From Alphaproteobacteria bacterium HGW-Alphaproteobacteria-18 (GTDB taxonomy: Bacteria > Pseudomonadota > Alphaproteobacteria > Caulobacterales > Hyphomonadaceae): 64,000 nucleotides of DNA. The translations under genes and the position numbers were made by a program. The stretch covers positions 95,074 to 159,073 of the forward strand of contig PHEH01000008.1 of NCBI GenBank assembly GCA_002841155.1, given 5' to 3'. Under the pieces are notes generated by a model. That model saw nothing but the letters and a program-made list of their open reading frames with translations. It was not told where the DNA came from and did not search any database. Positions 17,683 to 54,426 of this stretch are shown here, one piece after another. Each line of letters opens with the position of its first letter. Positions within the stretch are counted from its first letter, which is position 1.

Positions 17683-18660
17683 TCAGAGCTTTGCCATATT
17701 CTGGTGGTCGAGAAACCAGCGATACGCGGTCTCAAGACCTTCACGCATGCCGATTTTCGGAGTCCAGCCGAGATCTCTCAGGCGATCTGCCTTCATGAGC
17801 TTGCGCGGCGTGCCATCGGGCTTGGTCAGGTCCTTCTCAAGCTCACCCTCAAAACCAACAATCTGCATGACCAGTGTTGCAAGCGCCTCAATCGTCATGT
17901 CCTCACCCGAGCCGACATTTACATGGCCGTTGCCTGAGTAAACTTTCAGCAGATGAACCAGAGCATCAGCGCAATCATCCGCATGCAGAAACTCCCGCTT
18001 CGGCGTGCCCGTTCCCCAGATGGTCATCGAAGGGGCACCGGCGAGTTTCGCTTCATGCGCCTTGCGGATCAGCGCCGGGATAACGTGTGAAGACTGGAGG
18101 TTGTAGTTGTCGCCCGGACCATAGAGGTTCGTAGGCATCGCCGAGATATAATCGACCCCGTGCTGACGGCGATAAGCCTGACAGAGTTTGATCCCGGCAA
18201 TCTTGGCGATAGCGTACCACTCGTTAGTGGGCTCAAGCGGGCCGGTCAGCAGAGCGTCCTCGTCAATGGGCTGGTCCGCGAACTTTGGGTAGATACAGGA
18301 TGACCCGAGGAAGAGGAGCTTCTCCACATCATTGCGGAACGCCGCCTCAATCAGGTTTGCCTCGATCATCAGATTGTCATAGAGGAAATCCGCCGGGTAC
18401 GTATCATTGGCGAGAATGCCGCCGACTTTGGCGGCTGCGATGATAACAACATCGGGCCGGCGGTCCGCCATCCAGGCGCGCACGGCGGACTGATCAATCA
18501 GGTCAAGTTCTTGCCGCCCGGCGGTCAGGATTTCGCAACCTTCCCGCGCCAGGCGCCGCTCGAGCGCCGAACCAACCATGCCGCGATGGCCAGCAATGAA
18601 AATACGTTTTCTGGAGAGGTCGTAAATCAACTTTTCTGCACCGGTTGTTATCTCAGCCAA
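17683..18660 (-). CDS. fcl: GDP-L-fucose synthase (GDP-4-keto-6-deoxymannose 3,5-epimerase-4-reductase)
   Basis: NADPH-dependent epimerase-reductase completing GDP-L-fucose synthesis after Gmd. Its 325 residues include [17 protein letters not shown] (Rossmann loop GHRGMVG at 24-30), [11 protein letters not shown], the catalytic [10 protein letters not shown] serine and the YAIAKIAG tyrosine/lysine pair, then [13 protein letters not shown]. The frame has no ATG before the Rossmann motif; the available starts are TTG codons at 18660 and ten codons later, neither with a strong ribosome site. This may mean the original 5' end was lost in a rearrangement. A fragment of a second fcl lies at 19743-19799. 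Confidence 0.92.
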
Positions 18661-20634: not shown

Positions 20635-21708
20635 TCAATAGAAATTGCGATTATTGCGACCTACCTCCCGGCTGACGGTCTTGATATCCTCAACCACCAT
20701 TTCCTTCACCAGTTCCGGGAACGTCGTCGTATGTTTCCAACCAAGCTTCTGATATACCTTGGACGGATCACCGATCAGTAGGTCGACTTCTGTGGGCCGG
20801 AAATAGCGGGGATCTATGCGGACCAGGACGTCGCCTGACCTGGCGTCCCTCCCCACTTCATCAACCCCGGCGCCACTCCATTCGATCGTCCGGCCAATTT
20901 CGGCAAAAGCCCGTTCGACAAACTCCCGTACGGTATGTGTCTCACCTGTCGCGAGCACCCAATCGTCGCCCACATCGTGCTGAACAATCCGCCACATGCC
21001 TTCGACATAATCGCGGGCGTGTCCCCAGTCGCGCTTCGCGTCAAGATTTCCGAGATAAAGCTCTGACTGAAGGCCGAGTTCGATGGCGGCAACAGCCCGG
21101 GTGATCTTGCGTGTAACAAAAGTTTCACCGCGGGTCGGCCCCTCGTGATTAAAGAGGATGCCGTTAGAGGCATGGATGCCATAGGCCTCGCGATAGTTGA
21201 CCGTGATCCAGTAGGCATAAAGTTTGGCCACGGCATAAGGGCTGCGCGGATAGAAAGGTGTCGTCTCGCTTTGAGGCACAGCCTGCACCAGGCCATAAAG
21301 CTCCGACGTGGACGCCTGATAAAAGCGCACACTGTCTTCAAGCTTGAGTATCCGCAGCGCTTCCAACAGACGCAGCGGCCCAACAGCATCCGCATTGGCG
21401 GTATATTCGGGCGTCTCGAAACTGACCTGCACATGGCTCTGGGCAGCGAGATTGTATATTTCGTCTGGCTGCGTCTCCTGCACAAGGCGGATCAGATTGG
21501 TGGAATCCGTCATATCACCGTAATGCAAATGAAAGTGGCCGTTCGCATCATGGGGATCAACATAGATCTCATCCACTCGGCTCGTATTGAAGGACGATGA
21601 CCGCCGCTTCACGCCGTGCACAATGTACCCCTTCTCAAGAAGGAGTCTTGCCAAATAGGCGCCATCCTGACCGGTGACGCCTGTAATTAGGGCAGTTTTA
21701 GTTTTCAT
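20635..21708 (-). CDS. gmd: GDP-mannose 4,6-dehydratase
   Basis: NADP-dependent dehydratase forming GDP-4-keto-6-deoxymannose, the first step to GDP-L-fucose (or GDP-rhamnose/perosamine). From the ATG at 21708 the product is 357 residues, the usual size. It has [19 protein letters not shown] with the TGQDG loop at 12-16, [31 protein letters not shown], the [12 protein letters not shown] Tyr/Lys pair, and [17 protein letters not shown], all diagnostic of Gmd. A TTG at 21759 would extend it by 17 residues without family support. With fcl in the window, GDP-L-fucose is the probable product. Confidence 0.95.
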
Positions 21709-21914
21709 GCGGGGATTGCATCCAGCTAGGGCATTGAGGTTCGCAGGCTTATGGGGCAATTCTAACTTTCAAGGCAAGCGATGATGTCCATGAGAAGCAG
21801 CGCTCAATCCAAGGCTGTCATTCGAGTGTCATTATTGGAAATCTTCAAGGCGTTGGCCTTTACCCAAATACTGGGAAAGGTTAGTGGATCCTCTGCCAAA
21901 TTGGGACCAGAATT

Positions 21915-22598
21915 ATGTTCGATATTATTAGAAAACAGGAATACTTTGATCTTCTTGGTGGCGGGTTCGCAGATCAAAAAGACCACACACTCAAAGGAAT
22001 TCAGGACGGGTGGATCTGGAAGCACCTCTCTGAAACTAAAGGTAAAAAAATCCTTGAGGTTGGAGGCGGCAATTCGCGCATACTTCCCAAGCTGAAGGAA
22101 AATGAACTTTGGAACGTCGAAAAATTTGAAGGCGTCGGAAATGGGCCTACGGCGCCAAATGATGTTGACGGAGTAACAGTCGTTCCGGCTTTCATGGGCG
22201 AGTTTCACCCCGATATTCCGGAAGTTGACATCCTGTTCTCCATTTCTGTTGTCGAGCACATTCCGTTCAGTCAGTACGCCTCTGCATTTGAGGACATGGC
22301 CCGCTGTCTGAAACCAGGCGGCACCATGTACCATGCCGTGGACCTTCCCCTGGGCAACGAGCCTCTGGATGTTGCCCAGCAGCGCATTCGATTGCTTATG
22401 GAAGCGGTAGACAACAACAAGCTGACCTGGCGCACGCCGCCAGCGATATCTCCCGACCTCACCTTCTCTTGCGATATGGCCGCCAATTCCGACCTTACCA
22501 TGTGGATATGGTCGCGAATCTCAGAGGCGTCCCGGACCTCCGGACCTCATGTTCAAATTGTCACCATACAGATGATCGCGGACAAGCCTGTAGCTTGA
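21915..22598 (+). CDS. SAM-dependent methyltransferase (glycan-locus type)
   Basis: A 227-residue class I methyltransferase. KGKKILEVGGGNSRILPKL is the SAM-binding motif I, and VDILFSISVVEHIPFSQYASAFEDMARCLKPGGTMYHAVD covers motifs II-III. Its layout resembles that of the 239-residue methyltransferase at 18975, including the SVVEHI segment, so the two may be distant paralogues. It starts 206 bases from the divergent gmd gene and ends 21 bases before the giant multidomain gene, with which it is likely to share a transcript. O-methylation of a glycan sugar is the most plausible job. Confidence 0.8.
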   Translation: MFDIIRKQEYFDLLGGGFADQKDHTLKGIQDGWIWKHLSETKGKKILEVGGGNSRILPKLKENELWNVEKFEGVGNGPTAPNDVDGVTVVPAFMGEFHPDIPEVDILFSISVVEHIPFSQYASAFEDMARCLKPGGTMYHAVDLPLGNEPLDVAQQRIRLLMEAVDNNKLTWRTPPAISPDLTFSCDMAANSDLTMWIWSRISEASRTSGPHVQIVTIQMIADKPVA

Positions 22599-22619: not shown

Positions 22620-25600
22620 ATGAAAATATCCGTGATCACTCCGTCCTTCAATCAGGCGCAGTTCCTTCCCGCCAACCTGTCGTCCGTGCGAAGCCAGACA
22701 TATCGGGACGTTGAGCAGATTATCGTCGACCCAGGCTCCAAGGACGATAGCCGTGATATTGCCGCAGCCGCAGAGCACGCCTTACTCATAGCAGAGCCTG
22801 ACCGCGGCCAGTCCGATGGCATCACAAAAGGGTTCTCGAGGTCCTCAGGCGACATTCTGACCTGGCTCAACTCTGACGATTTCTATCCATCCGAGCGGGT
22901 TCTCGAAATTGTCGCGCGGGAATTTGAACAGAACCCGGACATTGATGTTGTCTACGGGAACGTCAACTTCGTTGATGAGCAGGGCGCTTTTCTACGAAAA
23001 GGCTACATCAACCAGAAGCCTGAAACTTTGCTTGAAAGCTTTCAGTACCAGGTCGGCATTGTCCAGCCCGGCCTCTTCATGCGGCGGTCGGTTTTCGAGG
23101 CCGTCGGAGGCCCCTCAGAGCAGTACGAGTACTGCATGGACTATGAATACTGGGTCCGCATCAGTACGGGTGGCTTCAAGTGGAAACATGTTGACGAAAT
23201 TCTCGCCCATCACCGCTGGTGGGGGGGGATGAAGACCAGCAAAGGGCGCGATGCGAGCCTGGTCGAGCATATGCGGGTCTGCAATGATTACTTTGGCTAC
23301 ATTCACTGGAAGTGGCTTGATCGTTACGCGGAGTATCTAACGTCAAACAAGGACGGCGTGGTCAATCACAGCTCGACGACCGACCCCGAAGTGAAGGCCC
23401 GAAACCTCAAATCTGTGATTGCCCGCTTTGTGTCGCAGGACATGATGAGCCAGATTGAAGCGAGCAAGAATGAACAACAGCGCGATACGCTGGAATTCAT
23501 CCGCACACATGCGCCCGATATGCCACGCTACTACTTTCCAGCTGAAGAAATCGCATCCCTGTCCGAAACCCACCCTGCCCCCGACGCGACGAAACGGACA
23601 GCCTGGCACATTTTCGATGGAATTGATGCGGGTCAGCGAAGATACAAAACCTATAATGTCCCCGGAAACTTTCACCGCGCATTTGATGCTCAGTGGTATG
23701 ATGAAACCCTGAAGGCCGGCGCCGCGAAGCTGCAAAAGCTCGCACAACATAAAAAGTCGAATATATGCGTCGTCGTTGCGAACGGGCCGAGCCTGAACAA
23801 GACAGACCTGTCGCTGCTGACTGATGTCGATGTCATCATTTCGAATTTCGCGACCTTGAACGAAACCCTGCTGAAATCAGCGACAATGGTGACGGTCACG
23901 AACACGCTGGTCGCCGAACAAGGCGGCGTTGCGTTCAACAATATCCAGACACCAAAGATCCTGCCTGTCTGGCTCTCACACCGGCTGAACCACACCGAAG
24001 AAACAAGCTTTGTCAGCGCCACCGTTTGTCCTGATTTCTGCACATCGCTTGAGGGGGAGTTTTCATGGCGCTCCACGGTCAGCTATTTCAACATGCAGCT
24101 TGCTTTTGCGCTGGGCTTCGAAAAGGTCCTCCTTGTCGGATTCGATCACTTCTACACGCAACCCGAGAACGTCAAAGAAGGCGACAGGATCGAACAGAAG
24201 GACGACGACGAGAACCACTTCGACCCCCGATACTTCAAGAACAAGGTCTGGCAGGCTGCAGACACAGGCAACATGGAGGCGATGTACAAATTGGCTAAAT
24301 CCGCCTTTGAAAGAGCCGGGCGAGAAATCGTCAATTGCACCGTAGGCGGACATCTGGAGGTATTCAGAAGAGGGGATCTGACTCAAGAACTTTCAAATCG
24401 GACACGCGCCAAGGCGCCTCCAAAAAAAGCAGCCGCCTCTGAACGGCATCCCCGGACCTTGGTCTTCGACATGACTGTCCGGGGAAATGGCACCGCGACC
24501 GGCGAACTCAAAGAGAACATTTTTGGGAACTGGCCCCAGGAAAATTATCTGCAGGTATTCTTGCAGGATCGGGAAACACTGGGCATCTGCGCTAACGGAA
24601 TAAAATCTATTCTTCCTAAGGATCATGCTGGGCAGATTAAGGACGTCATAAGCTCGTTCAATCCCGAAGTTATTCTTTACCGGCCAGTTCCAGACACTGA
24701 GTTGTTACATACTACGGCTATGAGCGCGATCCGTGCCCGGCCTCATACACCGCTTGTCACATGGATTATGGACGATTGGCCAACAAGGCTTGAACGCGAT
24801 GATCGTCCGCAGTTCACAAGACTCGACCCCGACTGGAAGTGGCTTCTCCAAACTTCAGCGCTGCGTCTATCCATAGGAAAAAAAATGTCCTCCGTTCTGG
24901 AGGGCCGGTACGGCCTGAAGTTTGAGCCGTTCGCCAACGGAGTAGACCCCGCTCAATGGGACAACGACGCGGAGATTGAAAAAGCGCGTCCATTTGTGAT
25001 CCGGTATGCTGGCGCGCTTGCTGATAACATGACGGCTGACAGCGTTCTTCGAGTTGCCAAAGCAGTGGAAGAACTTGCTGCTGATGGCGTTCCAGTGCGC
25101 ATGGAAATCCGTACACGTCCTCTCTGGAAAGACCAACAGGCCCACCTCTACGCGCAACTTAAGCACACTGAATTCTGCACAGAATTGCTGTCTTCTGAAG
25201 ATTACAGAAAATGGATTTCGGGTGCCGGCGGGGTGCTGCTGGCTTACAATTTTGATGCGGACAGTTTGGCTTACACACGCTTATCGATGGCAAACAAGTT
25301 GCCGGAGTGCCTGGCTAGCGGAGCCCCCCTGATTGCGCATGGGCCATCGGACGCTGCGACGATATCCTACCTTCAGGAAAATGAGTGCGCGCTGGTCGTT
25401 GATGAGCCTGACGTCAACAAGCTGAAGGCGGGCATTCGTGGTCTGATTTGCGATACCTCGTCAGCAAAGCGGCTGGCGGACAAGGCAAGAGTGATCGCTT
25501 TCTCGAAACATAACTTGGGCGACATACGGAACAGATTCAGGGATGCGATTGTGAACGCAAGCCGGTACGAAGTGCTGGGTCCCCAACCGGGACTTGAGCG

Positions 25601-28271
25601 TAGCAAAAATGCACATGTCGACGAAACAGCGGTCGTCGCGCTCATGCTGTCCGAGCGTACCGGCCGGCAGCATGTGATGCTGGATGTTGGCGCTCATTTT
25701 GGAACTTCAGCCCAATACTTCGACGAACTTGGGTGGAGCATTCATTGCTTCGAGCCCGATCCGAATAACCGCAAGAAGCTCCAGAGCCGATTTGGCAACT
25801 CGCCGAATGTCCGGATCGACGACCGCGCGGTGAGTGACCAGCCCGCGACAGGGCTGAAATTCTTCACTTCAGGTGAGAGTACCGGGATCAGCGGCCTTCA
25901 CGCGTTCCATGATACGCATAAAGTTACAGCAACCGTAGACGCGACAACTGTTTCCGAAATCGCAAGAGACCGGGCGATCAGCCGGGTCGACTTCCTGAAA
26001 ATTGACGTGGAAGGCTTCGACCTCAATGTTCTCAAGGGCGTCCCTTGGGAAACGCTTCAACCCGATGTGATCGAGTGTGAGTTCGAAGACGCCAAAACAT
26101 TGCGCCTTGGTCATGATTGGAAACACATCGCCGACTATCTCGAGGCAAGAGGATATACGGTTTATGTCAGCGAGTGGCATCCTATTGTCCGCTACGGCAC
26201 TCCACATGACTGGCGCCGCGTTGTACCGTATCGCAGATGTGAACTTGACAGTGATGCCTGGGGCAATTTCCTCGCCTTCAAGGAGGACCCAGGTTACAAA
26301 GCGGTCATATCTGCATTCGCAGCATTGGTGAAATACCGGCCACAGTTAAGCTTGGCCGCCGTGTCCACCAATAATCAGCAGCAATCGCTGAAAACGGGTG
26401 CTCCGGCAAAAACGCCGCCTATCGCTTCAAAAAGTATTAGTACATTGAGCCCAAATAAGGCCGCCCCAGCACAAATCCCCCTCAAACAAACAGATGACCA
26501 GAACGGCAATTTGAGCATGCTACAGAAAACACCATCCCATGCTTTGCAGGCGCCCCCGCCCCCCGGGCCCATGTGGTACGCTGCCCCGGCTCAGAAACTT
26601 CAGCAAGTTTCTCCCCCCTTGTTCGGGGCACTGAGATTTGCTCGCCGGAGCTTTGTTCACATGGTTTCGCGCCCTCATCTGATTGGCTTGCTCCTGGGCG
26701 CAACCGCCCTGGCCGCCTGGGTGGGCTTCAGCGCTCAGTTTGACGACAGCCGGAACTGGATCCTCGCGTCCGCTGGAATTGGGCTGCTGGGCGCTGCCAT
26801 TATATATGTGGCCGCCAAGGCCCAGGCACACATTGCCGCTCTCCATATTCAGAACGTCGCGGTTCACGCCGAATTGAGCGGTCTGCAGGAACGCCTTAAG
26901 CAGGTCGATCAACAAATTATCCTGCGTGATAATCCAGCTCTGGCATCTCTGAACAAGCAGATTGCGGAGCTTCAAAGCGCTCTTGCCCTGGCAAAGGCGT
27001 CCAGTTCTCAAATCACTTCAGATCTTGGCGCCAAAACAGCAAACCTTTCGGTCCAGTTATCTGAGCTTTCCGAAGCCGCAGCCAGCCTTCCAGGAGTGCA
27101 GGCAGATATAGCGAAGCTGGGAACCGCTATTAAGCTCACGCAGGACAACAACGACCAGAACATCACGGCCGCCAAAGACGCGATAGCAAAGGTGTCTGCA
27201 GACGTTGCTCCGCTTTCCCAGAAGCTGGCTATGCTCGATAACGCGAACCAGGCCCTCACGGCGAAACTGGAGAGCCTCTCCAAACAAATAGAGGCAATAC
27301 AAGCGACCGACACAGCGCTCCGTGGGCAGGTTGACGCCCTCAAAAGTGATGGGGCCAAAGTCGGTGGCGCCATCTCCACTGTTTCGGACAAAGTCGGTGC
27401 AATTGACGCCCGGATAACCGCGTCCGAGAAATGGTCGCGGTTTGATAACGCTGCATGGTTCCAGCACTTTAATCGCAAGCTGTCGAAGCAGCATATCGAA
27501 ACGCTCGACAAAGAATGGCGCAAGCGGCTCTCGATTCCGATGCAGCCAGCCACACTTGGTTATATGGCTAACCGTGCCTGCGAGATCGAACGTCAACTTG
27601 AAGGCCGCTTGGCGACTTCGATTGAGGATATACTCCTTCGTTCACTTGTCGCTCGAGCTGTAAGGGGCAAAAACGTAGACGTTCTGGAAATTGGTACGCT
27701 GTTCGGAACCGGCGCAGCCATCATGTTCGATGCCCTTGATGGTCACTATGATGAAATTCACTTTACCCTGCTTGATCCGCTGGAGGGTTACTATAACGGC
27801 GCACAAGCCGACATCCTGACCGGTCAGCGCGTAAACGAGCAGGTTGTGCGCAAGAATTTTTCGCGCGTCGGCATGAGTGAAGATCAGTACACGCTCATCA
27901 AGCATCTGAGCACCGAGCCCGATGCCATGCAGAAAGCTGCAACCCGGAAATATGATGTCCTTGTGATCGATGGGGACCATTCATATGCGGGCGTGAAAAC
28001 AGATTTTGAAAACTACGCTCCCCTTGTGCGCGTTGGTGGATACATAATTCTCGACGATTACAACTCTCCCGACTGGCCCGACGTCAAAGAGTATGTCGAC
28101 AATGAGCTGGGGAAACACGATTTCATAGCTCCCGTCGGAGCTACCTGGCGCACGAGCGTTTACAGGGTCGTGAAGGATACGGTCAAGGCCGGCCGCACCC
28201 AATCACCCGCCACACGCAAGAAGCCTTCGGTACGTCCGGATGCGGAAGATACGCAAATTTCGGATGAGTAA
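22620..28271 (+). CDS. Giant multidomain membrane-anchored glycosyltransferase/methyltransferase
   Basis: A single uninterrupted frame of 1,883 codons. Domains by residue: (i) 1-260, GT2 with ISVITPSFNQAQFL and the metal motif NSDD at 84-87. (ii) about 365-600, DUF115/Maf-like, with ANGPSL at 387-392. (iii) about 613-977, GT4-like (WIMDDWPTRL, FANGVDP, VIRYAGAL, ECLASGAPLIAHG). (iv) about 993-1233, FkbM methyltransferase, with LDVGAHFGTS at 1021-1030 and FLKIDVEGFD at 1125-1134. (v) a Pro-rich linker. (vi) two hydrophobic helices at about 1354-1373 and 1380-1402 with a short polar turn. (vii) coiled coil, about 1405-1610. (viii) a class I methyltransferase with VLEIGTLFGTG near 1688 and VLVIDGDHSYAG near 1780. 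The hairpin topology would leave both catalytic halves in the cytoplasm. The domain identities are well supported. The combined role (polymerising, methyl-capping and length control of an exported glycan) is inferred. Confidence 0.85.
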   Translation: MKISVITPSFNQAQFLPANLSSVRSQTYRDVEQIIVDPGSKDDSRDIAAAAEHALLIAEPDRGQSDGITKGFSRSSGDILTWLNSDDFYPSERVLEIVAREFEQNPDIDVVYGNVNFVDEQGAFLRKGYINQKPETLLESFQYQVGIVQPGLFMRRSVFEAVGGPSEQYEYCMDYEYWVRISTGGFKWKHVDEILAHHRWWGGMKTSKGRDASLVEHMRVCNDYFGYIHWKWLDRYAEYLTSNKDGVVNHSSTTDPEVKARNLKSVIARFVSQDMMSQIEASKNEQQRDTLEFIRTHAPDMPRYYFPAEEIASLSETHPAPDATKRTAWHIFDGIDAGQRRYKTYNVPGNFHRAFDAQWYDETLKAGAAKLQKLAQHKKSNICVVVANGPSLNKTDLSLLTDVDVIISNFATLNETLLKSATMVTVTNTLVAEQGGVAFNNIQTPKILPVWLSHRLNHTEETSFVSATVCPDFCTSLEGEFSWRSTVSYFNMQLAFALGFEKVLLVGFDHFYTQPENVKEGDRIEQKDDDENHFDPRYFKNKVWQAADTGNMEAMYKLAKSAFERAGREIVNCTVGGHLEVFRRGDLTQELSNRTRAKAPPKKAAASERHPRTLVFDMTVRGNGTATGELKENIFGNWPQENYLQVFLQDRETLGICANGIKSILPKDHAGQIKDVISSFNPEVILYRPVPDTELLHTTAMSAIRARPHTPLVTWIMDDWPTRLERDDRPQFTRLDPDWKWLLQTSALRLSIGKKMSSVLEGRYGLKFEPFANGVDPAQWDNDAEIEKARPFVIRYAGALADNMTADSVLRVAKAVEELAADGVPVRMEIRTRPLWKDQQAHLYAQLKHTEFCTELLSSEDYRKWISGAGGVLLAYNFDADSLAYTRLSMANKLPECLASGAPLIAHGPSDAATISYLQENECALVVDEPDVNKLKAGIRGLICDTSSAKRLADKARVIAFSKHNLGDIRNRFRDAIVNASRYEVLGPQPGLERSKNAHVDETAVVALMLSERTGRQHVMLDVGAHFGTSAQYFDELGWSIHCFEPDPNNRKKLQSRFGNSPNVRIDDRAVSDQPATGLKFFTSGESTGISGLHAFHDTHKVTATVDATTVSEIARDRAISRVDFLKIDVEGFDLNVLKGVPWETLQPDVIECEFEDAKTLRLGHDWKHIADYLEARGYTVYVSEWHPIVRYGTPHDWRRVVPYRRCELDSDAWGNFLAFKEDPGYKAVISAFAALVKYRPQLSLAAVSTNNQQQSLKTGAPAKTPPIASKSISTLSPNKAAPAQIPLKQTDDQNGNLSMLQKTPSHALQAPPPPGPMWYAAPAQKLQQVSPPLFGALRFARRSFVHMVSRPHLIGLLLGATALAAWVGFSAQFDDSRNWILASAGIGLLGAAIIYVAAKAQAHIAALHIQNVAVHAELSGLQERLKQVDQQIILRDNPALASLNKQIAELQSALALAKASSSQITSDLGAKTANLSVQLSELSEAAASLPGVQADIAKLGTAIKLTQDNNDQNITAAKDAIAKVSADVAPLSQKLAMLDNANQALTAKLESLSKQIEAIQATDTALRGQVDALKSDGAKVGGAISTVSDKVGAIDARITASEKWSRFDNAAWFQHFNRKLSKQHIETLDKEWRKRLSIPMQPATLGYMANRACEIERQLEGRLATSIEDILLRSLVARAVRGKNVDVLEIGTLFGTGAAIMFDALDGHYDEIHFTLLDPLEGYYNGAQADILTGQRVNEQVVRKNFSRVGMSEDQYTLIKHLSTEPDAMQKAATRKYDVLVIDGDHSYAGVKTDFENYAPLVRVGGYIILDDYNSPDWPDVKEYVDNELGKHDFIAPVGATWRTSVYRVVKDTVKAGRTQSPATRKKPSVRPDAEDTQISDE

Positions 28272-29770: not shown

Positions 29771-30508
29771 TTAAAGATCCCAATTTGGATTGGTTTCATA
29801 GCCATACCGTAGCAGAATATCATTAAATCTCTGCCTAAATGCATCAGCTACAGGAGGTGTAAATACTTCGCGCCACTGAACGGAGTTTGGATTTTCGAAG
29901 CGCATTTCTTGTCTGGGTGTAATTACGTCAAGATTCAAACCCAACCTCTTGCCTATGTCGCTCATAAAACCCGCAAGATCGACATCCAGATCCTCAAGTT
30001 TCACTTCTATAATATTAGATTTTTCTTCCCACGGGCGTATTTGCCTCTCGATTATACTCCCTGCAATGTTGTCCATTTCATAGATCAAACCATCTTCTTG
30101 ACTTAGCGTCTGTAGCTTTAATCTGTCCTCACCAAGCTTCGGCCACCTCCAAAGAGGCGTCTCGACTGGATGTCCATCAAGATGATGAAAGTAGCAAGAA
30201 ACCAGGAATTGCCTAGGGTCGCGAATGACATGAATACCAACATGTTCGGGATCGGCCGCTTCGATTTTGTCGACGACCTTCCGCGATGCGTTTGTCAGGC
30301 CCATCACACATGCCCGTTCAGTCAACTTCTGAAAGTCGACATTGTAAAAGTCTAAATCGTCGGGATGCTCAAATTCAAACACGGGATCGGAAATACTGTA
30401 TTGGTGGAACTCTGCTCCACCGATCTTTGCAATTTCCTTAAGCAGGTAGGTCCGAAAGTATCGAGAACCACATTTGTGGTGACCATAAAATACTAAACTT
30501 CTATTCAA
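29771..30508 (-). CDS. Sulfotransferase family protein
   Basis: A 245-residue PAPS-dependent-type sulfotransferase candidate. The N-terminal LVFYGHHKCGSRYFRTYLL is the phosphosulfate-binding loop, and HVIRDPRQFLVSCYFHHLDGHP, about 100 residues later, is the 3'-phosphate motif with the conserved Arg and Ser. The C-terminus includes EVFTPPVADAFRQRFNDILLRYGY, common in glycan sulfotransferases. It probably starts at a TTG whose last bases overlap the wzt stop (TTGA), with GGAAG upstream; a TTG at 30523 is the alternative. Base composition is markedly more AT-rich than the core genes, suggesting acquisition. Its substrate may be the glycan exported by the coupled transporter. Confidence 0.75.
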   Translation of the reverse strand: MNRSLVFYGHHKCGSRYFRTYLLKEIAKIGGAEFHQYSISDPVFEFEHPDDLDFYNVDFQKLTERACVMGLTNASRKVVDKIEAADPEHVGIHVIRDPRQFLVSCYFHHLDGHPVETPLWRWPKLGEDRLKLQTLSQEDGLIYEMDNIAGSIIERQIRPWEEKSNIIEVKLEDLDVDLAGFMSDIGKRLGLNLDVITPRQEMRFENPNSVQWREVFTPPVADAFRQRFNDILLRYGYETNPNWDL

Positions 30509-31767
30509 CTTGCGACTTCCCAAGTGTGTGGCAGCGAAAGCAACCCGTAACTGTTTCTAGAACCACGATTAACAACGATTGGGGGATTTAGCTTTCTGTA
30601 AAGGTGCTCAACACCATCTCTTACGACCACATTAGAATGGTACGTCCCCGGACCAAATATACCTGGAGGGATGAGAAGCTCATATCTGTTTCTACCCACT
30701 TGGTGAATCAGGCCATCAGGATATGTTTCTCTCGATGCGAACCCTACTATGTAAGTGCCATCGCTGGAGTAAATGGGAACGCCGATCGTAAGTTGTCGAA
30801 CGGGTTTTTTTAAAACAACTTCACAGACAAAACGCAATTGGCGTCCCTCTGAAATATGATCTATTGGCGCACCATCTTCACCACTCCAGTAATGGTCCAC
30901 GTGCTCAATTACGTCTTGTTGAGCATCAAGTTGCGGCTGTACTGCGAGTGAAAGCTGAACTGGGCTTGCAGGCAAGGTGGTCGGAGCATCAATCTCCTCC
31001 AAATAATACTTGATTGCCTCTTTGGCGGGGCCGCGGAAATGAACTTCTCCCTGATGCATGACAATTACCTGATCGCAAAAACGCTCAACATCAGCCATTG
31101 AGTGAGACACAAAGACAAAAGCGCTGCGGCTTCGCATTTCCCGGATTTTACCGAGGCATTTCTGGCGGAAACGGAAATCGCCGACAGCAAGCACTTCGTC
31201 GATGAGGAGGATGTCTGGAGAAACCGTCGCCATGACCGAAAATGCCAGACGCATCCGCATGCCGGAAGAATAGGTTGCCAAGGGGGCTTTGATTGCCTCG
31301 CCCAGTTCCGAAAAATCGATGATTTCCTGCAGGTGTTCCCGCGTCTTCTGGCGAGTGAAACCAAGCGCCGCCGCGCGCAGGAAAATGTTCTCATAGCCGC
31401 TAGCGGAGGACTGAAAGCCGGCATGCAGATCGATCATGGCCGCTGAGGTGCCGTTGACGACGATTTCGCCGGCATCGACGGGGATCTGCCCTGCGAGCAT
31501 CCGCAATAGGGTCGTCTTACCCGAGCCGTTGAGGCCGATGATGCCCAGCGCTTCGCCGCGGGCGACCTGAAACGACACATTCCGAACAGCCCAGAACTGA
31601 GATCCCTCGACAGAGGCCTGCGGCTTTGCCTTCTTCCCCCAGAAAGCACGCCAGGCTGCGGTGCCGAGCTTCTTTTTCATGTCCCGGTTCTGGCGGGCGT
31701 AGATCTTGCCCAGCCCCCCGACCTGCATGACGGGCAATTCCTGGGTGAACGCGTCAGGCTGGCTCAT
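30505..31767 (-). CDS. wzt: O-antigen/polysaccharide ABC exporter ATPase with C-terminal glycan-binding domain
   Basis: ATPase of the Wzm-Wzt type. Residues 1-250 form the nucleotide-binding domain: Walker A GLNGSGKTT (78-86), YSSGMRMRLAFSV as the ABC signature region, Walker B ILLIDEVLAVGD and the switch in VFVSHSMADV. Residues about 265-420 form a beta-rich extension (GRQLRFVCEVVLKKPVRQLTIG, VVVRDGVEHLYRK) of the Wzt C-terminal carbohydrate-binding type, which in E. coli O9a recognises the capped non-reducing end of the glycan before export. It overlaps wzm by four bases (ATGA). The start of the sulfotransferase gene overlaps its stop. Confidence 0.93.
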   Translation of the reverse strand: MSQPDAFTQELPVMQVGGLGKIYARQNRDMKKKLGTAAWRAFWGKKAKPQASVEGSQFWAVRNVSFQVARGEALGIIGLNGSGKTTLLRMLAGQIPVDAGEIVVNGTSAAMIDLHAGFQSSASGYENIFLRAAALGFTRQKTREHLQEIIDFSELGEAIKAPLATYSSGMRMRLAFSVMATVSPDILLIDEVLAVGDFRFRQKCLGKIREMRSRSAFVFVSHSMADVERFCDQVIVMHQGEVHFRGPAKEAIKYYLEEIDAPTTLPASPVQLSLAVQPQLDAQQDVIEHVDHYWSGEDGAPIDHISEGRQLRFVCEVVLKKPVRQLTIGVPIYSSDGTYIVGFASRETYPDGLIHQVGRNRYELLIPPGIFGPGTYHSNVVVRDGVEHLYRKLNPPIVVNRGSRNSYGLLSLPHTWEVAS

Positions 31768-32639
31768 ACGATCTCACGAATCCGGTGTTCCATGACATAG
31801 AAGAAACGTCCTGCAATCAGGGCCAGCAGCAAAGCTACGCCTGACCAGATCAGCAGTACAGTCAGGTCAATATGGGTTCCAAAGAAAAGATACTCCCTCG
31901 CCGATTTTATGAAGACATTGAACGGATTAACATCTTCAAGCAGGGCCAGGGGGCCCATCGTGCTGACCGGAAAAATGACGCCGCTCATGAATATACCATA
32001 TTGCAGGATGATGCTCGTGAGCCTGTCGATATCGGGATAGATCATGTTGAATATCGACAGGATAAGTCCCAGCGAAAGACAAAAAACCATACCCGAAAAA
32101 AGCGTGAAAAGCAGAAGCGGCAGGTGAACTATCGGGACCGGGCCGAACCAGATAACCAGCGCCGCAACGAGCACCAATCTGACAAGGGTATCGAAGCTCA
32201 ACTGCGCAAATGAGGAGCTGATTGCGGCCGTCAGAGGGATGGACGTTCGCATTGCCTCCTGAGTGCGCTGTCTCACGACCTGCATGGGACGCGTGATCAT
32301 GCCAGTCAGCAGCATCCAGATAGTCACGTTGAAACCGATATAAACAGCCGGGCTGAGCCCTTCATACTGCGGAAAAATACGCAGGTTCACGAGTAGGATG
32401 TAAACCGAGATTGGAACAAGCGGCAGGATGATGTTCCAGAGAACCCCCAGCTTTGTGCCGCGATATGCACTGCGAAAGTCACCGACAAACACCACGGAGA
32501 TATGGGATCTGAAACGCCATATTTCTGCTGCCATGGCCCCAATTGCCCCAATCGGGTTTGAGTCCATGCGGCTGTCCGGAAGGTAACGGCGCGTAACGGC
32601 GGAAGGGTCACGACCTTGAGTAGATTTAACTTTTTTCAT
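31764..32639 (-). CDS. wzm: O-antigen/polysaccharide ABC exporter permease
   Basis: ABC-2-type integral membrane permease exporting undecaprenyl-linked glycan with Wzt, 291 residues from the ATG at 32639. FRSAYRGTKLGVLWNIILPLVPISVYI is the conserved N-terminal coupling helix and first membrane segment; about five more hydrophobic segments follow. The frame is open upstream to 33059, but that part is Cys/Arg-rich, overlaps the divergent glycosyltransferase gene and has no family resemblance. The ribosome site before 32639 is weak, so the exact start is less certain than the identity. Confidence 0.92.
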   Translation of the reverse strand: MKKVKSTQGRDPSAVTRRYLPDSRMDSNPIGAIGAMAAEIWRFRSHISVVFVGDFRSAYRGTKLGVLWNIILPLVPISVYILLVNLRIFPQYEGLSPAVYIGFNVTIWMLLTGMITRPMQVVRQRTQEAMRTSIPLTAAISSSFAQLSFDTLVRLVLVAALVIWFGPVPIVHLPLLLFTLFSGMVFCLSLGLILSIFNMIYPDIDRLTSIILQYGIFMSGVIFPVSTMGPLALLEDVNPFNVFIKSAREYLFFGTHIDLTVLLIWSGVALLLALIAGRFFYVMEHRIREIV

Positions 32640-32800
32640 CTGACTATACCCAAGGCGGAGGAACATCCCTGTTTGGGCGACCTCGCCCGATAGCTGCCTG
32701 AGCCGATCCTGAGTGTCAACGCAGCGTCTGACATACTGTCTGGTTGACGATACCTCCAATGCCGACAAGAAGATGGCAGGTAAATTTGGCAGGAAACCGC

Positions 32801-34669
32801 ATGCTCCTGAACAATCTGAACACGCCCGCTGGGCCCGCTCTGGAAAGAAAGCTCGCAATCCTGGGTAATGGCCCCAGCCTGCGCGGGTTTGATTTCGCGC
32901 GCCTGGGCGGGATGGATACGTTGGGAATGAATGCCGCGTTCCGTTACTGGGACAAGATTGGCTGGCGGCCAAACCATTATGCCTGCCTTGATGATGCGCT
33001 GATCGATACGCACAAGGAAGACATCTGCCGCCTGATCGAAGAAGGCCGCATTGAATCATTCTTTCTATCAGGGCGTATTCTGGAAAGTCATCCCGGCCTG
33101 GCGCAACGAGAGAATGTGCGCTTTCTGGATTCCTATGTTCCCTATTGGCATGAAACCCGCGGTGCAGGATTTGGGGTTGAGCTAATAGATGCGCCCGCCT
33201 TCAGGACTGGCTGGCCCAACCTTTTGACGACCGGCGCCTATTCGCTGCGATATGCGGCGGAACTGGGCTACACGCAGCTGATCCTTCTGGGAATTGATCT
33301 GGACTATCAGCCCTTGCCTGAGGCGGCAGAGGCTGACGGGCTGCGACTGGTCATGACCGAAACACCAAAGGAAAATCCCAATTATTTCTTCGATGATTAT
33401 CAGCAGGCCGGGGACGAGTTTCATGTGCCCAATCCTGAGAGCCATGATCAGGAGTTGCATGTCGCCGCATTTGCGGCCGTCCGGGACGACTTTGAAAATG
33501 AGGGTCTGGATATTGAGCTGATCAACACCAATCCCGCGTCCCGTCTGAACCTGGAAGGCATTCTGCCCTATAGCGATATCCGCAAGGTGCTCGGAGAGCC
33601 GGCCCTGGGGGCGGTCGTCGTTCCCCTTACGCCGGGCGAACATGAGCAGTTGATGGATAATCTGTGGCTGTGGTCTCTGCCGGGCTTCGCGCCATTTCTC
33701 GGCAAGAAACCCCGGCAAGTCCCGGATTTGATTTTCGTCTGCAACAACGCTCGGGCCGCCGCAATTGAACCAACCGTGCTCGAAGCCATGAATAGCGCGC
33801 CTCATCTGCGTGCATGTTTCAATGATATAAGGTTTATCGATCTGAATCTCTCTGGCGACAGGGATCTTTATCTGCGGGACAATGTAGGCCCCGCCTCAGA
33901 ATTTGGCTGGCGCGCCGGCCCAAACCATCTGTTCTTTGGCGCGCTCGAGGCGCTGAAACAGCATTGGGGCCATGCCCTTTTCATGGAAACCGACTGTGTG
34001 CCGATCCATGCAGGCTGGCTCGGTAAGTTCAACAACCTTCTGGCCAGTGATGAACTGCCATGGGTTATCGGCAGCATCTACCGGGGCTCTGATCCTCTCG
34101 GATCGCGGGAGAAGCGCCACATAAATGGCAATGCCATCTATGCTACGGGTGATCCGGCCTTTCACGATTTTGTCGAAACGATCTGGCGCCCGAAACTCGA
34201 CCAGATGGTCAAGGAACGCCCCGAACTCGCCTTCGATTGCGTGCTTGAGGCGCTTTATGAACAGGCCAATGCGTTGGCCGGGGACGATGATGAACTCTGG
34301 AAGGCGCTGAGGAGCGCCAGCCATAAATTCCGCTACACAGAAGCCATCGTGAACCTTACCAGCGCCCGCCGCGGCCCTTATAAACTGGTCAAACAGATCA
34401 CCGACGCCATGTCGACTTCCCCCAATGCCTGCCTCGTTCATTCCAGGATGCTGGCTACATATGTGACCGTTCTGAGAAGAAGCGAAACGCCTCGCAATCT
34501 TAAGGCCATGCTGGACCTTATGAGAGCTGAAGCGCCCGATGCTCTGCTGCCAACCCTGCCGGAGGCGCCACCAACAAGCATGGGCACAGTGTCGCCCCGC
34601 CCGCCCTGGACGGTCAAACGGATTGTTAGCGGTGTCGCGCGCAGGGCACTGAATTGGGCGGGAGGTTAA
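32801..34669 (+). CDS. Two-domain glycosyltransferase (DUF115/GT42-like plus GT-A-like)
   Basis: A 622-residue protein. The N-terminal third opens with KLAILGNGPSLRGFDFARLGG and a following YACLDD, the nucleotide-binding signature of DUF115/Maf-like and CST-type (GT42) transferases, which use CMP-nonulosonates. TTGAYSLRYAAELGYTQLILLGIDLDY closes that domain. The second part has VPDLIFVCNNARAAAIEPTV and HALFMETDCVPIHAGWL, a GT-A-like acidic metal-site segment. ATG at 32801 is chosen for its AGGAA ribosome site; in-frame starts at 32744 (TTG) and 32759 are possible. It is divergent from wzm. The donor may be the CMP sugar made by the cytidylyltransferase at 35825, which is inference. Confidence 0.72.
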   Translation: MLLNNLNTPAGPALERKLAILGNGPSLRGFDFARLGGMDTLGMNAAFRYWDKIGWRPNHYACLDDALIDTHKEDICRLIEEGRIESFFLSGRILESHPGLAQRENVRFLDSYVPYWHETRGAGFGVELIDAPAFRTGWPNLLTTGAYSLRYAAELGYTQLILLGIDLDYQPLPEAAEADGLRLVMTETPKENPNYFFDDYQQAGDEFHVPNPESHDQELHVAAFAAVRDDFENEGLDIELINTNPASRLNLEGILPYSDIRKVLGEPALGAVVVPLTPGEHEQLMDNLWLWSLPGFAPFLGKKPRQVPDLIFVCNNARAAAIEPTVLEAMNSAPHLRACFNDIRFIDLNLSGDRDLYLRDNVGPASEFGWRAGPNHLFFGALEALKQHWGHALFMETDCVPIHAGWLGKFNNLLASDELPWVIGSIYRGSDPLGSREKRHINGNAIYATGDPAFHDFVETIWRPKLDQMVKERPELAFDCVLEALYEQANALAGDDDELWKALRSASHKFRYTEAIVNLTSARRGPYKLVKQITDAMSTSPNACLVHSRMLATYVTVLRRSETPRNLKAMLDLMRAEAPDALLPTLPEAPPTSMGTVSPRPPWTVKRIVSGVARRALNWAGG

Positions 34670-35791: not shown

Positions 35792-35824
35792 CTCCTCCAC
35801 CCCCACAGAAATGAGAACCATGGC

Positions 35825-36541
35825 ATGATTGATGGCCAGAAACTGACGGCACTTTTGCCGATGAAAGCCAATAGCGCCCGCGTCATTTCCAAGAATTTTC
35901 GGCAGATCGCGGGCAAGCCGCTGTTCCGCTGGATTCTCGATACAATGCTTGCCGTTCCGGAAATTGATCAGGTCGTCATCAACACGGATGCCCGTGAGAT
36001 ACTGGCACGCGAAGGACTGAAGGATGGCGACGCAAATGGGCGCGTCCTTATCCGGGATCGCAAGCCCGAAATCTGCGGTGATTTCGTTTCAATGAATCTC
36101 GTCCTCGCCGATGACATCGCGAACGTGCCTTCCGACCATTATCTGATGACACACACCACCAATCCGCTGCTCCGCGCCGAAACGATTGCGGACATGCTGC
36201 GTACCTACAAGAGCGGCATCGATAATGGCAAAGCCGACTCGCTGTTTTCCGTGAACAGAATGCAGACCCGCTTTTACACGCCGGATGGCGCCCCGATCAA
36301 TCATGATCCGGATAACCTCATCCGCACGCAGGATCTTGATCCGTATATGGAAGAAAATTCCGTCTGCTATCTCTTTACGCCCCAGAGCTTTCAGGCGACC
36401 CAGGCCCGGATCGGCCGGAAGCCCCTCCTTTTCCCGACGCCAAAGCTCGAATCTGTGGATATTGATGAACCCGCAGACTGGTTTATTGCCGAATCCCTTC
36501 TTCTCCGCGTCGCCGCTGGCGAAGCGCTGCCAACGGCCTGA
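35825..36541 (+). CDS. Acylneuraminate cytidylyltransferase family protein
   Basis: Nucleotidyltransferase that would activate a sugar acid (nonulosonate-like or Kdo-like) with CTP. In the 238-residue product the N-terminal signature is LLPMKANSARVISKNFRQIAGKPLF, a variant of the classical PARGGSKRxxxKN loop. VVINTDAREI, then HTTNPLLRAETI with its acceptor-site residues, and VDIDEPADWFIAESLL with the metal-binding Asp residues complete the family pattern. No nonulosonate synthase (NeuB-like) or epimerase is in the window, so the sugar cannot be named. The dehydrogenase gene starts three bases after its stop. Confidence 0.83.
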   Translation: MIDGQKLTALLPMKANSARVISKNFRQIAGKPLFRWILDTMLAVPEIDQVVINTDAREILAREGLKDGDANGRVLIRDRKPEICGDFVSMNLVLADDIANVPSDHYLMTHTTNPLLRAETIADMLRTYKSGIDNGKADSLFSVNRMQTRFYTPDGAPINHDPDNLIRTQDLDPYMEENSVCYLFTPQSFQATQARIGRKPLLFPTPKLESVDIDEPADWFIAESLLLRVAAGEALPTA

Positions 36542-36544
36542 AAC

Positions 36545-44188: not shown

Positions 44189-44210
44189 TCCGGCGCCTAC
44201 GGGGACACGC

Positions 44211-45068: not shown

Positions 45069-45091
45069 GCCATTTCCAAGAGGAGCCAAGA

Positions 45092-51592: not shown

Positions 51593-52495
51593 TTGCCCAC
51601 CCTGACCCATCTTGACCGGCTTGAAGCCGAAAGCCTGCACATCCTTCGGGAGATTGCGGCCGAGTGCGAGAAGCCGGTGATGCTCTATTCCATCGGCAAG
51701 GATTCGGCCGTGATGCTGCATCTGGCGATGAAGGCTTTCTATCCGGCCAAGCCCCCCTTTCCGCTGCTGCATGTCGATACCGGCTGGAAATTCCGCGAGA
51801 TGATCGAGTTCCGGGACCGCAAGGTAAAGGAGCTGGGCCTGGAGCTGCTGGTCCATATGAATAAGGATGGCGTGCGCGAAGGCGTCGGCCCGTTCAGTCA
51901 TGGCTCGGCCTATCATACCGATGTGATGAAGACCACCGCGCTAAAACAGGCGCTCGACAAATACGGCTTCGATGCGGCCTTCGGCGGCGCCCGGCGGGAC
52001 GAGGAAAAGTCCCGCGCCAAGGAGCGCGTCATCTCGTTCCGCTCAGCCGGTCATCGCTGGGACCCCAAACGTCAGCGCCCGGAAATCTGGAACCTCTACA
52101 ATACGCGCATGCACAAGGGCGAAAGCCTGCGGGCCTTTCCGCTCTCCAACTGGACCGAGCTCGACATCTGGCAATATATCCGGCGCGAAGGCATCGAGCT
52201 TGTTCCGCTCTATCTGGCCGCGCCGCGCCCCGTGGTCACCTGGAACGACACGCTGATCATGGTCGATGATGACCGCGTGCCCGCCGAGATCGCAGCGAAG
52301 GCGGAAGTCAAATCCGTCCGTTTCCGGACACTTGGCTGCTATCCGCTGACCGGCGCTGTGGAAAGCTCCGCCCACACGCTGGATGACGTCATCCAGGAAA
52401 TCCTCCTCACCACCACCTCCGAGCGCCAGGGCCGCGCCATCGACAAGGACCAGTCCGCCTCGATGGAGAAGAAGAAGCAGGAAGGCTATTTCTGA
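51593..52495 (+). CDS. cysD: Sulfate adenylyltransferase subunit 2
   Basis: PP-loop ATPase-type subunit that joins sulfate to AMP, forming APS with CysN; 300 residues. [21 protein letters not shown] is the classical N-terminus, [19 protein letters not shown] contains the PP-loop SxGKDS, and [29 protein letters not shown] and [15 protein letters not shown] are diagnostic. The start is a TTG at 51593 with AGGAT at good spacing; no in-frame ATG lies upstream. An overlapping 14-codon ORF begins at an out-of-frame ATG (51571). The stop overlaps the cysNC start by one base (TGATG). Confidence 0.95.
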
Positions 52496-54426
52496 TGCGC
52501 CTCAATGACGATCTCATCGCTTCGGATATCGGCGCCTATCTGGAGGCGCACGAGAACAAATCCCTTCTGCGCTTCATCACCTGCGGCTCGGTCGATGATG
52601 GCAAGTCCACCCTGATCGGGCGCCTGCTCTACGATTCAAAGATGATCTTTGAAGACCAGCTGGCCGCGCTGGAAAACGACTCCAAAAAAGTGGGCACGCA
52701 AGGCGACAGCATCGACTTTGCCCTCCTGGTCGATGGCCTCGCCGCCGAGCGCGAACAAGGCATCACGATTGATGTTGCCTACCGCTTCTTCGCCACGCCG
52801 AAGCGTAAATTCATCGTCGCCGACACGCCGGGACATGAACAGTATACGCGCAATATGGCCACCGGCGCCTCCACCGCAGACGCCGCCATCCTGATGATCG
52901 ACGCGCGCAAGGGCATCCTGACCCAGACGCGCCGCCACAGCTTTATCGCAAGCCTTCTGGGCATCCGCCATCTCGTGCTCGCCGTGAACAAGATGGATCT
53001 TGTCGGCTATAATCAGGATGTGTTCGAAGACATCGTCTCTGACTTCATGACCTTCGCCGAAGGCCTTCCGGGCAAGGTGAACATCCGCCCCATCCCGCTC
53101 TCGGCGCTGGCGGGCACCAACATGACCGAACGCTCGCCCGAGACGCCCTGGTATGATGGCCCGAGCCTGATCGAATATCTCGAAACAGTCGAGATCGAAG
53201 GCGAGGACACCGCGCGCCCCTTCCGCCTTCCCGTTCAGTGGGTAAACCGCCCCAATCTCGATTTCCGGGGCTTTGCCGGCCAGATTTCCAGCGGCGCGGT
53301 GCGCCCCGGCGACCGGGTTCGCTCTCTGCCTTCAGGACGCGAAACCACGATCACCCGCATCGTGACCGCCGGCGGAGACCTTGACCAAGCCGTCGCCGGC
53401 CAGTCCGTGACGCTGACTTTCGCTGACGAGATCGACACCTCGCGCGGCGACATGATCGTCTCGGCCGATCAGCCTGCGGAAGTTTCCGACCAGTTCCAGG
53501 TTCACCTCCTCTGGATGAGCGAGCAGCCCCTGCTGCCCGGCCGCCGCTACATCCTGAAAGCCGGCGCCAAGACCGTGACCGCCACCGTCAACGCGCCCAA
53601 GCATGGCATTGATGTCAACACGCTGGCCGAAACCCCTGCCCGCGCCGCCGAGCTCAACCAGATCGTGGTGACGACGCTTTCCCTCGATCAGCCGATCCCG
53701 TTTGATCCCTACAAGGATAACCGTCAGACTGGCGGCTTCATCCTGATCGACCGCCAGTCAAACGACACCGTTGCCCTCGGCCTGATCGATTTTGCGCTGC
53801 GCCGCGCCTCCAACATCCACTGGCAGGCCATCGACATCAGCCGCGACGCGCTGGCCGAGCAGAAAGGCCAGCGCCCGGCGGTTCTCTGGTTTACCGGCCT
53901 CTCAGGCTCGGGCAAATCGACCATCGCCAACGCACTGCAAAAGCGGCTCTTCGCCTATGGCCGCCACACCTTCATCCTGGACGGCGACAATGTCCGCCAC
54001 GGCCTCAACCGCGATCTTGGCTTCACCGATGCTGACCGGGTGGAAAACATCCGCCGCGTGTCGAATGTCGCGCGCCTGATGTCGGATGCGGGCCTGATCA
54101 CGCTGGTCTCATTCATCTCGCCTTTCCGGGCCGAGCGGCAGTTGGCGCGCAGCCTGATGCCGGAGGGCGAGTTCATCGAGATCCATGTCGATACGCCGCT
54201 GGAAGTGGCCGAAAGCCGGGATGTCAAAGGCCTCTACAAGAAGGCCCGCGCCGGCGAGATCCGCAACTTCACCGGCATCGACAGCCCGTATGAGCCCCCG
54301 CTCAACGCCGAAATCCGCATCAGCACAGCCGAGCGCACGGCAGAAGACGCCGCTGAGGAGATCTTCGCTTATCTTGAAGAGCACGGTTTCCTGAGTGTCT
54401 GGGAAGGGCCTGGTAGCGGCATCTGA
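52495..54426 (+). CDS. cysN: Bifunctional sulfate adenylyltransferase subunit 1 / adenylylsulfate kinase
   Basis: CysN-CysC fusion of 643 residues. The N-terminal two-thirds is a GTPase related to EF-Tu: G1 [18 protein letters not shown]3 [13 protein letters not shown]4 NKMD, then two beta-barrel domains. From about residue 463 comes APS kinase: [18 protein letters not shown] (P-loop), [15 protein letters not shown] and [15 protein letters not shown]. With CysD the enzyme makes PAPS directly, the donor for sulfotransferases. No PAPS reductase or sulfite reductase is nearby. This fits a sulfation role as well as assimilation, though the genes for assimilation may lie elsewhere. Confidence 0.96.

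Follow-up and report, generated by a model that had tools for sequence, protein, structure and literature searches.

How a coiled coil can act as a ruler and measure out a polysaccharide has been established for a small number of Escherichia coli and Klebsiella systems (PMC11231755). The rule given there is that the terminator is located at the distal tip of the coiled coil, away from the polymerase modules. In WbbB of Klebsiella pneumoniae O12, the terminator is an N-terminal β-Kdo transferase, the polymerase is C-terminal with the coiled-coil ruler on the same chain, and the product is exported by an ABC transporter. The K. pneumoniae O7 protein ORF6 likewise combines an N-terminal methyltransferase-kinase that makes methylphosphate, a central coil, and C-terminal GT2 modules, and its locus encodes Wzm/Wzt (PMC11231755). 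E. coli WbdD, which caps chains with methyl or methylphosphate, is linked to a coiled coil whose base lies near the membrane (PMC3482155, PMC11231755), and is described as a methyltransferase only in O8 and as a kinase-methyltransferase in O9a (PMC3482155). On the export side, a domain of the Aquifex Wzt (6o14) is reported to bind 3-O-methyl-mannose (PMC9445017).

We analyzed a stretch of 64,000 nucleotides (the window) from Alphaproteobacteria bacterium HGW-Alphaproteobacteria-18. Positions 22620 to 28271 of its forward strand form one uninterrupted open frame of 1,883 amino acids, present as a single copy in the genome, which we call the synthase. An artifact of frame or assembly was ruled out because the same kind of long frame recurs in other genomes. 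From the N terminus, the order is GT2, Maf/DUF115, GT4, FkbM, a Pro-rich linker, a membrane hairpin, a coiled coil, and a second methyltransferase (MT2). Accordingly, the three putative polymerizing modules (GT2, Maf/sialyltransferase-like, and GT4) all lie N-terminal of the hairpin, at the proximal end. Three domains passed the Pfam cut-offs: GT2 (residues 1 to 235; 22620..23324; PF00535, 5.8e-23), for which phmmer matches were chondroitin synthase and other chains; FkbM (residues 993 to 1240; 25596..26339; PF05050, 1.8e-24), which lies on the polymerase side of the hairpin and is 56 to 75% identical across nine other genomes of the family; and MT2. The linker (residues 1241 to 1340; 26340..26639), recognized from its sequence, is poorly conserved. 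No kinase domain was present among the 24 Pfam families listed for the protein.

The two remaining domains required other evidence. The Maf/DUF115-type domain (residues 365 to 600; 23712..24419) matched MptE-like at 6.5e-7, below the cut-off. Its profile (A2) reached alpha-2,3-sialyltransferases among PDB sequences at 5.7e-12 and, weakly, 5mu5 at 0.0018, entries that we take to be CST-type sialyltransferases and Maf. These matches place the domain among the CST/Maf CMP-sugar transferases, and because its profile is related to the alpha-2,3-sialyltransferases, its donor is probably a CMP-sugar. The GT-B, GT4-like domain (residues 608 to 980; 24441..25559) had no match in a single-sequence Pfam search of the window protein, and its profile found one weak match among PDB sequences (0.068); Pfam GT4-type models matched it in relatives L002 and L006 only, below the cut-off. 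Its identity was settled by structure prediction after these searches came up short. An AlphaFold model with high confidence (pLDDT 92.6) has a GT-B fold with close structural matches to BshA, MshA, and PimB', which assigns it, on the model, to the retaining GT4 glycosyltransferases.

The predicted hairpin (26679..26816) consists of two hydrophobic helices (residues 1354 to 1372 and 1381 to 1399; hydropathy 1.89 and 2.16) joined by an eight-residue loop, QFDDSRNW. Its N-terminal flank is basic (RFARRSFVHMVSRPH), and the hairpin is retained in relatives. It is followed by a putative coiled coil (residues 1400 to 1602; 26817..27425), called from its composition and heptad period, which differ from those of the rest of the chain. 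The heptad z is modest (2.8 to 2.9). A single-chain model of hairpin, coil, and MT2 was poor (pLDDT 58.9) and was consulted for secondary structure only; in it, long helices carry on from the second transmembrane helix (TM2). MT2 (residues 1603 to 1853; 27426..28178; PF13578, 1.9e-14) comes directly after this coil of about 200 residues, with the hairpin at the opposite end. The first-pass annotation had proposed the continuous frame, the order of its domains, and a cytoplasmic location for both halves of the chain. The frame and the order were confirmed. The domain assignments are upheld as predictions, GT2, FkbM, and MT2 by Pfam, Maf by profile, and GT4 by model, and so is the topology, given the basic flank and the short loop.

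To place this protein among its relatives, we used samples of 105 genomes from the family, 299 from the order, and 385 from the class. The survey recovered a family of related architectures. Among the 105 family genomes, the FkbM core was found in 10, the MT2 profile in 9, and the sulfotransferase described below in 3. Seven of the 10 cores end in hairpin, coil, and MT2 within one open reading frame, and two (G054 and G024) end in hairpin, coil, and sulfotransferase. G099 (73% complete, with two short contigs) encodes its polymerase and its MT2 as distinct proteins; both have a hairpin, and the two hairpins are 41% identical. Across the order sample, MT2 occurred in 16 genomes, 10 of them outside the family. 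The nine family proteins, these 10, and one from locus L009 make up a set of 20 MT2 proteins. Glycosyltransferases, hairpin, coil, and MT2 share one chain in 12 of the 20 (seven in the family plus L171, L172, L173, L174, and L177), and two of these, L172 and L174, have no FkbM. Hairpin, coil, and MT2 occur without glycosyltransferases in four (L120, L123, L175, and L176), and other membrane segments precede MT2 in two (L178 and L179). MT2 of L009 stands alone, with no membrane helix called. In L180 (L180:9827-15052), the order is reversed to the canonical one, with MT2, a coil of about 630 residues, Maf, and GT4-like domains; its MT2 is remote (7.1e-26) and has DNY where most have DDY. When the 385 class genomes were searched with the coil plus MT2 or with the MT2 profile, each query found its own genome only; given 16 of 299 in the order sample, the class sample therefore held few genomes of the order. 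Of 72,556 plasmid records, 5 matched, all over less than 80% of the query.

Drawing on the domains, their order, synteny, co-occurrence, and exchange of modules, as established from sequences and models, we infer that the synthase is probably both polymerase and chain terminator, on a single chain, for a lipid-linked surface polysaccharide that would be exported by the adjacent Wzm/Wzt. The GT2, Maf/sialyltransferase-like, and GT4 domains of the N-terminal half would add the sugars of the repeat unit on a lipid carrier, with methylation within the repeat by FkbM. The hairpin would anchor this half to the cytoplasmic membrane at its inner face, the site of growth of lipid-linked chains, and TM2 would run into the coiled coil, carrying the sugar O-methyltransferase MT2 away from the membrane. 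A chain would then be capped with a methyl group at its nonreducing end only once it was long enough to reach the tip, such that the coil would serve as a ruler and rod length would set chain length. The methyl cap would stop growth, and the capped end could be recognized by the C-terminal domain of Wzt for export. We favor this mechanism in part because the anatomy fits the published rule for distal terminators (PMC11231755), because L180 has the canonical order, and because in L009 the synthase parts are divided among three neighboring genes at a locus that encodes a full-length Wzt.

The character of MT2 also argues for a terminating role, because it resembles MycF and NovP and keeps its motifs in the fused proteins. 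It matched TylF (PF05711) at 3.7e-7, above the cut-off, its profile reached MycF at 1.7e-4, and two sugar O-methyltransferases, MycF and NovP, are among the solved structures closest to it. A Foldseek search with the hairpin-coil-MT2 model ranked MycF first and also listed catechol-type O-methyltransferases. The window protein has the motifs EIG, DxDH, and DDY, and the family profile match together with the acidic motifs places MT2 among the TylF/MycF/NovP sugar O-methyltransferases. The acids of DxDH and DDY presumably bind metal. In the six other fused family proteins, MT2 is 62 to 72% identical to that of the window, and DxDH and DD are kept in all 12 fused proteins. These observations bear on an alternative that assigns capping to FkbM, beside the hairpin, and makes MT2 either an enzyme of late modification or a partly degenerate domain with a structural role. 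FkbM does lie close to the membrane-proximal junction, and MT2 is eroded in two nonfused proteins, having lost the metal-site residues of one motif in L120 and of both in L123. Yet a proximal terminator would need no rod to measure length, the MT2 motifs persist in every fused protein, and L172 and L174 dispense with FkbM, all of which makes capping by FkbM very improbable.

If MT2 caps the chain, the exporter might be expected to bear a matching domain. Wzt (30505..31767, reverse strand; ABC_tran, 4.2e-20; Wzt_C, 7.7e-5, below the cut-off) lies 2.2 kb from the synthase, and the gap between the two genes ranged from 32 to 3,444 bp in the nine loci measured. Next to it is the Wzm permease (31764..32639, reverse strand; ABC2_membrane, 8.8e-10; homologs of 285 to 291 residues). 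Its listed reading frame, which extends to 33059, is too long: homologs start about 140 codons later, at about 32639. At the C terminus of Wzt is a predicted carbohydrate-binding domain (30508..31005, reverse strand). Its profile (A7, 14 rows) had four PDB matches at E values up to 1 (6o14, 8dky, 7k2t, and 8dku; best, 2e-5), all named ABC transporter, with one aligned stretch common to all four. The locus thus encodes Wzm/Wzt together with a domain predicted to be of the cap-binding type.

The distribution of this domain follows that of the fused methyltransferase, and MT2 is better understood as a terminator because the Wzt domain, related to a methyl-cap binder, is found near by in 7 of 7 family genomes with fused MT2. 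It is present in 9 of the 105 family genomes, the other two being G005 and G011. Treating the genomes as independent would put the chance of this overlap at 1.6e-9, but that assumption does not hold, and co-occurrence of neighboring genes is not independent of descent. In G005, Pfam identified a methyltransferase-coil-PhyH protein near Wzm/Wzt; G011 has a protein that is similar by eye, cut at the end of the locus. Proteins joining a methyltransferase, a coil-like segment, and a PhyH dioxygenase near Wzm/Wzt lie at L161:827-3649 (by Pfam) and L162:17191-19998. Such proteins possibly represent a further cap chemistry. The Wzt domain is absent from both sulfotransferase-tipped genomes and from G096 and G099, in which MT2 is eroded. 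Across the 20 MT2 loci, 13 have a Wzt with the C-terminal domain, 2 have a Wzt that lacks it (L120 and L172; 2 of the 15 with a visible Wzt), and 5 have no Wzt in the fetched stretch (L123, L173, L174, L176, and L180). Loci such as L172, in which the MT2 motifs are intact although Wzt has no such domain, speak against the proposed reading.

Alternatively, the synthase could be the processive enzyme proposed in the first-pass annotation, with both methyltransferases modifying every repeat, the coil serving only for oligomerization or positioning, and neither termination nor ruler. Coiled coils commonly oligomerize, and two well-conserved methyltransferases on one chain would suit such a role. 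Decoration of this kind would leave unexplained, however, why all seven family genomes with fused MT2 also have a Wzt domain akin to a methyl-cap binder, why two relatives carry a sulfotransferase at the tip, and why each of the 12 fused proteins ends in MT2, behind the coil, whereas FkbM is missing from two of them. We consider it unlikely.

Variation in the coil is a further reason to favor a capping MT2 at the end of a ruler, because coil length ranges from 140 to 268 residues in nine fused family proteins while MT2 and FkbM are conserved. The coils measure 204, 167, 246, 140, 235, 196, and 146 residues in the seven MT2 proteins and 191 and 268 in the two with sulfotransferase tips, values that vary with the called limits of TM2 and the tip domain. 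Heptad z is 2.7 to 8.4 in these nine. Fused proteins outside the family have coils of 108, 342, 184, 145, and 172 residues (z, 3.6 to 5.0), and z is 1.8 in L175 and 1.9 in L178. Unlike MT2, the coil sequences can barely be aligned. The coil of L016 contains an in-frame tandem array (L016:11341-11640, residues 1466 to 1565) of 7.1 copies of a 42-bp unit with 93% matches, each unit encoding 14 residues, or two heptads. Between L016 and L011, MT2 is 91% and FkbM 82% identical, and the coil is 95 residues shorter in L011 (235 versus 140). The array may vary from strain to strain and tune glycan length. No tandem repeats were found in the window gene or in L120. The rods of the hairpin proteins with eroded MT2 (888 residues in L120:9023-12811 and 958 in L123:1-3824) are not explained by a simple short ruler.

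Replacement of the tip enzyme also argues for termination by MT2, because two of the 10 family synthases have a sulfotransferase in its position, preceded by the same hairpin and by a coil. The same type of enzyme is encoded as a stand-alone PAPS-type sulfotransferase of 250 residues in the window (29771..30523, reverse strand), between MocA and Wzt, and was identified by profile and homologs. It had no Pfam match at 0.001 (Sulfotransfer_1, 0.047, below the cut-off). Its homologs form the tips in L117 and L118 (Sulfotransfer_1, 0.0014 and 8.4e-4, also below the cut-off). A three-row profile reached PDB sulfotransferases at 0.0044, and L149 forms a bridge, matching the profile at 4e-16 (positions 50 to 241) and Sulfotransfer_1 at 1.3e-16, above the cut-off. 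Across five aligned rows, HHK and RDPR do not vary. Cap recognition is unsupported at the sulfotransferase-tipped loci, because their Wzt proteins are short (278 and 249 residues), nothing there matches the window Wzm, and the genomes lack the Wzt domain. Separately, a gene weakly resembling the window sulfotransferase (8e-06) lies at L172:3628-4401, near an MT2 synthase with a domain-less Wzt. In the window, a sulfated glycan is plausible because the sulfotransferase gene shares the region with CysD and CysNC for PAPS synthesis (51593..54426, forward strand; profile matches). The genome has no other near-full-length match to the APS kinase encoded there, only a second one spanning positions 2 to 49, and the enzyme therefore also serves general sulfate metabolism.

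Exchange extends to the polymerase modules. Before FkbM, the window has GT2-Maf-GT4, Hyphomonas chukchiensis (L002) GT2-Maf-Maf-GT4, L003 x-GT2-Maf-GT4, L111 x-Maf-GT4, L116 Maf-GT2, and both L011 and L016 GT2-GT2-Maf. Among the loci compared, the window GT2 and Maf are nearest to L002 (72 and 68%), the closest GT4 is that of the Hyphomicrobiaceae MAG L004 (53%), and L116 is nearest for FkbM (75%), hairpin (42%), Wzt (54%), Wzm (67%), and MocA (54%). MT2 identities are nearly tied (L116 and L011, 71%; L002 and L016, 70%). It looks as though polymerase modules have been swapped on a constant chassis. Carried further, hairpin and coil would form a plug-in system with shuffled N-terminal glycosyltransferase sets, interchangeable tip chemistries (O-methyl or sulfate), either chain direction, and length retuned by in-frame heptad-repeat expansion, a tentative generalization that we regard as possible but doubtful. 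The first-pass annotation knew of no other example of the full order. That exact order was indeed not found in the loci examined, but it is one combination among shuffled architectures. Its picture of a chain that assembles a glycan and methylates it in one place overlooks what the architecture is probably for, since MT2 is held at the tip of a coil whose length varies, a layout that matches chain terminators with rulers (PMC11231755), and since the Wzt domain is related to a methyl-cap binder.

The surrounding genes suggest which sugars may be involved. The window encodes steps for GDP-L-fucose, including GDP-mannose 4,6-dehydratase (20635..21759, reverse strand; TIGR01472, 1.6e-177) and GDP-L-fucose synthase (Fcl; 17683..18660, reverse strand; NF047922, 2.5e-162), and dTDP-glucose-derived steps. 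Several of the structures nearest to MT2 presumably act on 6-deoxysugars, and one might guess from the locus that the methylated sugar is fucose or rhamnose. A methyltransferase gene (21915..22598, forward strand; Methyltransf_23, 3.3e-6) lies 21 bp upstream of the synthase; its homologs adjoin the synthase in L002, L011, and L016 and are near it in L117. A CMP-sugar cytidylyltransferase-like gene (CTP_transf_3; 35825..36541, forward strand), with a remote PseF match only, could possibly supply the donor for the Maf domains. At 34817-37486, the window carries GT2, CTP_transf_3, and 2-hydroxyacid dehydrogenase genes, and the same trio occurs in Rhodobacteraceae, Thiocystis, and Nitrospirae loci. 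Also inside the glycan region, at 42779-46273, are AHCY, metK, and a gene that combines a formyltransferase domain with an ACT domain. Dedicated SAM supply by metK and ahcY was dropped as evidence because no further metK was found in the genome.

Comparison of loci also revealed a second Maf-type protein, conserved next to Wzm (32744..34669, forward strand). Maf glycosyltransferases are reported to modify flagellins in several bacteria, and the weak reach of the Maf domain profile to 5mu5 would be compatible with a machine that glycosylates flagellin or S-layer protein. That profile is nevertheless far closer to sialyltransferases, the locus has Wzm/Wzt and nucleotide-sugar genes, and no flagellar family was found among 30 neighbors (Pfam at 0.001), so that a role in protein glycosylation is hardly credible.

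If MT2 and its counterparts are terminators, the synthase looks like an alphaproteobacterial design, in a marine bacterium, that places the polymerase, its membrane anchor, the rod, and the capping enzyme in a single polypeptide. Among its relatives are natural variants in coil length, proteins with a different tip enzyme, and one with the order inverted, with which ruler function, cap identity, and recognition by the transporter could be tested separately. Sulfate as a length-defining cap, if true, would be a terminator chemistry not found in the literature searched. None of the titles and abstract openings searched shows the window architecture or a sulfotransferase terminator, although the WbbB paper or a review on made-to-measure O-antigens may mention either.

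Compared with the described systems, the window protein resembles WbbB in carrying polymerase modules and a putative ruler and terminator on a shared chain; it differs in its reversed order, in having an O-methyltransferase at the tip and a membrane hairpin at the proximal end of the rod, and in its FkbM domain. ORF6 of O7 shares the combination of methyltransferase, coil, and glycosyltransferase modules; again the order is opposite, the glycosyltransferase set differs, and Pfam found no kinase in the window protein. For the same reasons, no kinase family among the 24 and a C-terminal MT2, the protein does not qualify as an ortholog of O9a WbdD or O7 ORF6. In WbdD, moreover, the capping enzyme is N-terminal, the polymerase (WbdA) is a separate protein, and the chain has a C-terminal amphipathic helix rather than a hairpin. 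The window Wzt profile matches the methyl-cap-binding domain of A. aeolicus WzmWzt (6o14; PMC9445017), although the similarity is remote (E, 2e-5 over 118 profile positions). The principle is thus already known (PMC11231755); what appears to be new, as far as searches show, is the inverted order with a hairpin, the polymerase set, the sulfotransferase tip, and the change of length by heptad repeats.
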